A stretch of 64,000 nucleotides of DNA from an uncultured Clostridia bacterium (GTDB lineage: Bacteria > Bacillota > Clostridia > Christensenellales > UBA1242): NCBI GenBank assembly GCA_944381135.1, contig CALWJY010000007.1, positions 24,055-88,054 of the forward strand. The letters run 5' to 3'. This document shows positions 62,462-63,218 of this stretch, in pieces; the first letter of the stretch is position 1, and every line of letters starts with the position of its first letter. Under the pieces are notes generated by a model. The model had not been told where the DNA came from, ran no database searches, and saw only the letters and a program-made list of their open reading frames with translations. Both the position numbers and the translations under genes were made by a program.

Positions 62462-62491
62462 AACAAAGCATAAATTGAAATGCGCTAAAAT

Positions 62492-62512
62492 GCGCTCGTA
62501 GCTAAGTTGGAT
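62492..62512 (+). pseudogene. tRNA-Arg 5' fragment
   Basis: The first 21 bases match the start of the chimeric tRNA at 62647 (GCGCTCGTAGCT, then AAGTTGGAT instead of CAGCTGGAT). After the D-loop it continues into unrelated, hairpin-rich sequence, so it is a truncated remnant. Confidence 0.7.
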
Positions 62513-62605
62513 ATCACCTTTCGGTGATGCGACATCGTCGAACCTTTGCAAGTGAAGTCACTGCAACTCTTCTCCTTGTCTAAGAGCGTTCACGCTCCAT
62601 CCAGC
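62513..62605. repeat. Series of hairpins with an inverted tRNA D-arm piece
   Basis: Four small stem-loops in a row: ATCACC/GGTGAT (62513-62528), CGAC/GTCG (62530-62540), TTGC-A-AGTGA/TCACT-GCAA (62546-62566), and GAGCG/CGCTC (62584-62597). 62592-62605 is the reverse complement, 13 of 14 bases, of the D-arm at 62661-62674. Richer in GC than its surroundings. Function unknown. Confidence 0.5.
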
Positions 62606-62646
62606 AGCAACAGTGGCGGAACAAATTTAATATAAACAAATTTTAT

Positions 62647-62715
62647 GCGCTCGTAGCTCAGCTGGATAGAGCGTTCGTCTACGGAAGAGATGGTCTTGGG
62701 TTCGATTTCTCCCAT
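62647..62715 (+). pseudogene. Chimeric tRNA-Arg(ACG) pseudogene
   Basis: The 5' half is complete: acceptor strand GCGCTCG, D-arm GCTC/GAGC, anticodon 5' stem TTCGT and loop CTACGGA. The 3' half does not pair with it: no ACGAA, no CGAGCGC. It resembles a different, weak T-arm (GGGTTCGATTTCTC). The break is at the anticodon loop. Confidence 0.75.
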
Positions 62716-62741: not shown

Positions 62742-62818
62742 GCGCCATTAGCTCAGCTGGATAGAGCGTCTGTCTACGGAACAGAAGGTCGAGCGTTCGA
62801 ATCGCCCATGGCGCACCA
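62742..62818 (+). tRNA. tRNA-Arg (anticodon ACG)
   Basis: Complete cloverleaf: acceptor GCGCCAT/ATGGCGC, D-arm GCTC/GAGC, anticodon stem TCTGT/ACAGA with loop CTACGGA (anticodon ACG, reading CGU/CGC/CGA after A34 deamination), variable AGGTC, T-arm GAGCG/CGCCC with one A-C mismatch, discriminator A and an encoded CCA. It adjoins the integrated element at right and is its likely attachment gene. Confidence 0.93.
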
Positions 62819-62987: not shown

Positions 62988-63009
62988 TGTCTACGAATTG
63001 TCTACGAAT
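62988..63009 (+). repeat. Tandem 11-bp direct repeat (possible integrase arm sites)
   Basis: TGTCTACGAAT occurs twice head to tail at 62988-62998 and 62999-63009. Its first eight bases equal those of the tRNA-Arg anticodon region (62771-62778). One helical turn per unit suits cooperative protein binding. Confidence 0.6.
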
Positions 63010-63084
63010 TTTTCCAAAATTTATGCAAATTATATTATCGGAAGTCGAACTTGCTTGCAAGAGTGAGACTGATGGTTATACATG

Positions 63085-63164
63085 CTATATGATGAGTGTG
63101 CGAAACACACAAATTCGTTAGAATTTATAAAATTTTATGCTAATAAAATTTTATCATCATATAG
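63085..63164. repeat. Four-way-junction (cruciform-like) element
   Basis: Outer stem CTATATGATGA (63085-63095)/TCATCATATAG (63154-63164). Inside, three hairpins lie end to end: GTGTG-CGAAA-CACAC (63096-63110), AAATTC-GTTA-GAATTT (63111-63126) and ATAAAATTTTA-loop-TAAAATTTTAT (63127-63154, loop GCTA, sharing one base with the outer stem). No base is left unpaired between stems. It lies outside the transcript of the integrase, whose terminator is at 63219-63248. Confidence 0.75.
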
Positions 63165-63218
63165 TCTATGTTTTGTAATGTATTATTTCACAATGTATTT
63201 TATTGTATCGTTTTATAG

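Follow-up and report, generated by a model that had tools for sequence, protein, structure and literature searches.

What is a short stretch of DNA that folds into a complete four-way junction doing between a tRNA gene and an integrase gene? The element in question occupies positions 63085 to 63164 (+ strand) of a 64,000-nt stretch from an uncultured Clostridia bacterium (GCA_944381135.1, contig CALWJY010000007.1, positions 24,055 to 88,054, forward strand); the whole of this stretch is referred to here as the window. In the predicted fold, an outer stem of 11 bp (P4; 63085-63095 paired with 63154-63164) encloses arm a (63096-63110), arm b (63111-63126), and arm c (63128-63153), whose stems have 5, 6, and 11 bp. 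These lengths agree with a preliminary description of the locus, which had also held that no base at the junction is unpaired; the predicted fold leaves a single junction base, 63127, unpaired. The minimum free energy (MFE) is -26.5 kcal/mol (z = -6.6), a value equaled by none of 200 shuffles. Under a strict rule (outer stem of at least 8 bp, arms of at least 5 bp, and at most 2 unpaired bases at the four-way junction), no junction formed in 10,000 dinucleotide-preserving shuffles of the element. When the + strand of the 64 kb was tiled in 84-nt pieces at steps of 10, one of 6,392 pieces qualified, namely, the one at 63081, which is the element itself. The same description had judged the arrangement improbable by chance and had named frequent formation of such junctions in AT-matched random sequence as the outcome that would speak against it; the shuffles gave the opposite outcome. 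Stems do form readily in AT-rich sequence, but with these counts, and with homologues that covary (see below), the probability of a mere chance fold is negligible. The four-way junction is real. An Rfam scan of the window returned tRNA only and nothing on the folded element.

The 80-nt junction is the 3′ domain of a larger mobile unit of 136 nt at 63031 to 63166 (+ strand), delimited by alignment with empty sites and by a covariance-model match. Two sibling species (genomes G089 and G132; loci L143 and L144) carry the same tRNA-Arg/integrase locus minus exactly these 136 nt: the empty locus reads GCAAATTATGTTTTG, and the window reads GCAAAT followed by the 136 bases and then TATGTTTTG. The triplet TAT, present once in the empty sites, stands twice around the window copy as a short core repeat (left, 63031-63033; right, 63167-63169; both on the + strand), so the exact position of the unit boundaries is ambiguous over up to 3 nt. 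In a target-site duplication test, these 3 bp alone were doubled, and they could be either a duplication or a crossover core. Because exactly 136 nt are absent, and TAT is single, in two sibling species, 63031-63166 is a mobile insertion, made precisely at a TAT-containing site. The flanking ACAT/ATGT match that had been attached to the junction falls outside the element: ATGT (63168-63171) is target DNA and is also present in the empty sites. Within the unit, the four-way junction formed by P4 and arms a, b, and c is preceded by a 5′ hairpin domain (63033-63080, + strand). This domain consists of P1, P2, and P3, has GA/GA internal loops, and contains a nearly constant core, CGAACTTGCTTGCAAGRGTGAG, which some copies extend. 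The fold also indicates an internal strand, J′ (63073-63095, + strand), which comprises the 3′ strand of P1 followed by the 5′ strand of P4.

Has this fold been maintained? The preliminary description had proposed a search for covarying copies in related genomes with a structure-aware model, and such copies were found. Across 38 units, 91.9% of cells pair, and 22 of 49 pairs have changed on both sides, in an alignment made without structure but with the structure taken from one member, which somewhat favors it. The covariation score is 0.246, versus 0.126 in shuffles, and when the structure is slid by 1 to 3 columns, 32 to 43% of cells pair. There are two main alternative sets of arms, and distant members retain the junction with different arm letters. 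Among 55 distinct units of the dispersed class (target classes are described below), the MFE structure contains the junction in 31 under the strict rule, versus 1 of 550 shuffles (an earlier shuffle count under the strict rule gave 3 of 1,100), and in 42 under a looser rule, versus 7 of 550 shuffles. The fold is thus kept while the arm sequences turn over, and we consider it very likely that this is a gene-free mobile unit under selection for its fold. A resemblance to hammerheads through the motif CTGATG was dropped, as distant members lack it.

Within the genus, 64 of 112 genomes gave BLAST matches to a 201-nt query around the element, frequently at numerous positions. With a covariance model built from 38 hand-chosen units, 58 of the 112 were positive, with up to at least 28 matches per genome. 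The same model was positive in 11 of 297 genomes of an order sample (three genera besides the window's own, two of these in other families) and in 1 of 398 genomes of a phylum sample, namely, the window's own, which holds one full copy and one fragment. A scan of named genomes with the 20-base hairpin core gave at least 119 stretches; among the 80 matches listed, the titles name uncultured Clostridia, Firmicutes, Eubacteriales, or Christensenella. The core had no exact match in IMG/VR viral contigs, and phage or plasmid relatives were abandoned as candidates, with only short, weak matches coming from 4 phage and 3 plasmid records. The family had been described as unrecognized, and this held: Rfam matches to units were absent or far from the gathering score (in five unit-bearing loci scanned at E values up to 10, nothing on the units came near it), and a literature search covering few subscription papers and no preprints found no description of this family.

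To place the units in their genomic context, we used 40 regions picked from the best matches on long contigs, which yielded 47 loci. In 44 of these, the units overlap no retained open reading frame (ORF) of at least 70 aa by more than 60 bp; the other 3 overlap short ORFs. Head-to-tail units, 2 to 4 per locus including partial ones, are found at 20 of the 47 loci. The downstream gene is convergent in 27 cases and on the same strand in 20, and in 12 of the 27 convergent cases the unit is no more than 15 bp away from the stop codon of that gene. These observations bear on another explanation, in which the family is a structured noncoding RNA carried on a mobile repeat, with selection on the transcript and with spread as a secondary matter; such an RNA might, for example, bind a protein through the conserved GA/GA hairpin or act at gene 3′ ends. 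The covarying fold fits this idea, as does the larger number of G.U cells (36) than of A.C cells (17) in the stems, and, in the tRNA and 5S subfamilies, some hairpins of arm c resemble intrinsic terminators by eye. The mixed orientation toward downstream genes argues against it, however; moreover, in several classes P4 is a copy of the target, and the fold reaches to the very ends of the unit, as expected of a recombination substrate. We regard an RNA function as the primary explanation as unlikely. As a separate observation, a truncated unit consisting mainly of the 5′ hairpin domain (G000:C1:121926-122023; L095) lies directly before an ORF that, by eye, is presumably tgt.

Where do the units insert? 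The outer flanks of dispersed units (39 left and 46 right) read TAATTT-ATA and ATA-WTAT, ATA being common to both ends, and the dispersed units themselves mostly have GTTTAT at the right end and TTAT at the left end. Right ends are GTYTATA in the dispersed class, GTTATAG in the tRNA-Val class, and others elsewhere. Some subfamilies share the hairpin core but differ in P4, and these lie at the 3′ ends of tRNA-Val, tRNA-Glu, and 5S rRNA genes; a further class with that core and yet another P4 lies at a TTATCCACA motif between two ORFs, which we take by eye to be hisS and a gene for a HelD-like helicase (the hisS class). Because of TTATCCACA, the last site was first taken to be oriC, an assignment that the neighbors recognized by eye do not support. 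In the four classes (tRNA-Val, tRNA-Glu, 5S, and hisS), the 3′ strand of P4 is target sequence and its complement lies inside the unit, so that the tRNA or 5S gene end stays intact beside the unit. Under the strict rule, the junction is formed by 9 of 10 tRNA-Val units, 2 of 3 5S units, and both tRNA-Glu units tested, whereas none of 4 hisS units forms it; one hisS unit tested under the looser rule passes. In ten tRNA-Val units, 96.8% of cells in P1, P2-P3, and P4 are paired, and 5 of 19 pairs have changed on both sides. Direct repeats at the ends of the target-adjoining unit measure 8 to 15 bp in nine tRNA-Val units, 12 to 13 bp in 2 of 4 hisS loci, and 12 bp in 1 of 2 5S loci; those of the remaining loci, tRNA-Glu included, measure 6 to 9 bp and are probably unrelated, the range of the automatic search being too short for the longest units. 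In the surroundings of the hisS class, TTATCCACA recurs at a spacing of 95 bp, with an inverted copy seen between by eye, perhaps another small unit (L114, 6863 and 6958; L115, 7492 and 7587; L211, 2412 and 2507; L181, 5321 and 5416).

The tRNA-Val 3′ end was located in 89 of 112 genomes, and 30 such loci were fetched, 3 of them with less than 300 bp of sequence past the tRNA. Four of the 30 hold this family (L298, L302, L303, and L307). In two loci from two species, an integrase ORF ends 102 and 124 bp from tRNA-Val, and in other loci, such as L290, the tRNA end is not repeated within 230 bp. Depending on the species, these 3′ ends carry islands, units, or empty sites, which is what would lead one to see the units as attachment-site scars of lost integrative islands, amplified by unequal crossing over. 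Yet the dispersed class sits without a matching target repeat, scars would not retain a covarying four-way junction, and the exact empty site also disfavors this origin, which we consider very improbable. Four other loci of the 30 (L283, L284, L289, and L297) contain gene-free units whose flanking repeats are the same but whose 5′ end differs, and three of these four show a hairpin or leader plus a P4-closed three-arm junction; the fold plan may extend beyond this family.

How could a unit that carries no gene be moved? P1 begins at the left end of the unit and P4 finishes at the right end, and the inner strands of P1 and P4 adjoin; for this reason, a circle of the unit pairs the junction of its two ends (J) with J′. 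Except at 3 central positions, J′ is complementary to the junction that the unit ends make in a circle or in a tandem array. Circular folds of 8 units, representing the four target classes and the dispersed class, were calculated with RNA parameters (DNA parameters agree in outline); J′ and J pair and enclose the three arms, and the hairpin part of one unit (L089) folds otherwise. We propose that the unit is a nonautonomous integrative cassette on which a site-specific recombinase acts in trans with attC-like logic, a reading to which we give a probability of roughly 55%. The unit would travel as a single-stranded circle in which folding would pair the circular junction of the two ends with J′, thereby restoring a double-stranded recombination site with the conserved hairpin closing one side and the three arms closing the other. 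This circle would then be joined to its target in trans, much as integron integrases use folded attC sites, by a recombinase, most likely of the tyrosine type, supplied by the host or by a resident island. That a recombinase acts in trans seems to us somewhat better than an even bet; the single-stranded, attC-like route, which we infer from the folds and which is the best-supported mechanism yet an unproven one, falls a little short of even odds. Of the possibilities raised in the preliminary description, a DNA element serving as an attachment or single-strand recombination site comes nearest, and to it can now be added a precise insertion and ends that, with the internal strand, can form a duplex like a recombination site. 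Nothing was found that points to a transfer or replication origin, which it had also suggested.

Several observations weigh against this proposal. The unit lies on the leading strand in 17 of 41 clear cases, with no bias to one replication strand and therefore nothing to suggest that it is captured at one strand of the fork. Neither a circular nor an excised form was seen in the assemblies, no reads being available. The G.U and A.C counts given above fit RNA about equally and are not decisive. In the automatic search, no long target repeat turned up at the outermost unit of the tRNA-Glu loci, of 2 of 4 hisS loci, or of 1 of 2 5S loci, and the dispersed class matches its targets at the short core only (in 27 single units, the direct repeats are 1 to 15 long, with one of 33). 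Among the 47 loci, likeness between neighboring genes is confined to pairs of loci, so that no enzyme is linked to the units. Finally, the unit junction is unlike the 300 nt upstream of the gene for a XerS-like protein in 16 genomes, although dif itself was not located.

The last point concerns one candidate enzyme in particular. Were the chromosomal Xer recombinase to move the unit at dif-like sites, in the manner of integrative mobile elements exploiting Xer (IMEX), the enzyme would be at hand nearly everywhere, given that PF00589 matches occur in 111 of 112 genomes and that a XerS-like protein of ~350 aa is the sole such match in some carriers, including one whose genome is 100% complete (G088). 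XerS is the best model for this protein, but the score of 180 to 181 bits is below the cutoff of 267; furthermore, the P4 arms differ wholly among subfamilies, and together with the dissimilar upstream sequence this makes movement by Xer improbable in our view. Motif discovery upstream of xer returned coding sequence as its output. By eye, a TACTATATATAGTA-like palindrome is seen upstream of xer in several genomes (L123 to L140), which is possibly the dif site of the genus.

A transposase is the other kind of enzyme that we considered. The unit has no terminal inverted repeats (left end TTATCGGAAG versus right end CACATAGTTTAT), has hairpins near both ends, and is inserted 3′ of a short target, all of which would suit a miniature element that depends on an IS200/IS605 (Y1) transposase. 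By hand count, Y1 genes are also more common where the unit has at least 6 copies (9 of 27 genomes) than elsewhere (4 of 85). Nevertheless, Y1_Tnp has matches in 13 of 112 genomes and in 10 of 58 carriers, 18 of the 27 high-copy genomes have none, the ends of the Y1 insertion sequences compared by eye are unlike the unit ends, and the lack of strand bias also argues against such a transposase, so that we rate this explanation as decidedly improbable. Among 12 Y1 regions, there is one case (L147, 1298-2021; genome G072) in which a unit lies ~125 bp past an IS200-type transposase gene.

The unit does lie, as had been described, between the tRNA-Arg gene (acg; 62742-62818, + strand) and a tyrosine integrase ORF (PF00589; 63263-64000, - strand, open at the window end), both of which are outside the unit. 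The association with the adjoining integrase that had been suggested was not borne out: the integrase appears to be an incidental neighbor because in both sibling species this tRNA-Arg/integrase locus lacks the unit, and at the 47 other loci no neighbor recurs beyond locus pairs. This neighborhood has other features of its own. Two adjacent GTCTACGAATT repeats (62989-63010), also present in both siblings, lie between tRNA-Arg and the unit and look like arm-type integrase sites. A degenerate tRNA-Arg copy (62644-62705; 62 nt, 84% alike) lies upstream of the real gene, with similar copies in G089 and G132. A second candidate gene-free unit of 155 nt (62514-62668, within 62490-62668; z = -3.35) lies between two 24-nt copies, 92% alike, of the 5′ portion of a tRNA-Arg-like sequence and, by eye, is apparently absent from the aligned G089 locus.

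The cassette proposal leaves room for a more specific role of the internal strand. J′, either as single-stranded DNA or as RNA, might serve as a guide to the unit's own ends as well as to the target, with targeting by base pairing; we regard this as a speculative and rather unlikely extension. If it were true, one enzyme reading the conserved hairpin alone would put gene-free circles of ~140 nt into varied tRNA, rRNA, and intergenic sites as J′ changes, which would amount to a programmable integration system without a gene of its own. Whatever the mechanism, the family is a natural one of DNA units in which the fold is kept and the sequence is not, with a datable insertion and with several target classes that share one hairpin core. 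It raises two testable questions, namely, whether recombinases use folded circles of less than ~180 nt outside integrons and whether base pairing alone can set the choice of target. More generally, a structure-first reading can reveal mobile elements that gene- and similarity-based annotation has missed.

How does the family compare with known systems? Like miniature inverted-repeat transposable elements (MITEs), repetitive extragenic palindromic (REP) sequences, and other small bacterial repeats, the unit is small, nonautonomous, and intergenic; unlike MITEs and REP sequences, it has neither terminal inverted repeats nor matching transposase ends, and it has a branched, covarying fold. IMEX, such as CTXphi and others, use the host Xer and have no recombinase gene of their own, and some integrate through a folded single strand, as outlined in PMC5357621 and PMC3089051. 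The units differ from them in that, as far as could be tested with the sequence upstream of the XerS-like gene, their targets are not dif sites. The closest analogues are the bcr1-type repeats and the attC sites of integrons. The former (bcr1 to bcr3, from the Bacillus cereus group) are gene-free repeats with TTTAT at their ends, to which the GTTTAT right end of our dispersed units bears a likeness by analogy only; the host group is different, and targeting of tRNA or 5S ends is not mentioned in the excerpts available on bcr1. With regard to integrons, the R box consensus is GTTRRRY, and it is absent at the crossover of our units, whose right ends are those given above. Three tyrosine recombinases scanned against NCBIfam scored far below the cutoff for integron-integrase models. 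In contrast to attC cassettes, moreover, the unit is gene-free, no integron platform was seen, and a P4 strand copies the target in several subfamilies. In an attC site, as summarized in PMC8946536, the inverted core repeats of a folded single strand form a duplex recombination site with an unpaired center and a variable terminal structure. The unit resembles this architecture: J′ and J enclose the three arms in the circular folds of 8 units, and the mismatches of the unit lie near the crossover, as does the unpaired center of attC.
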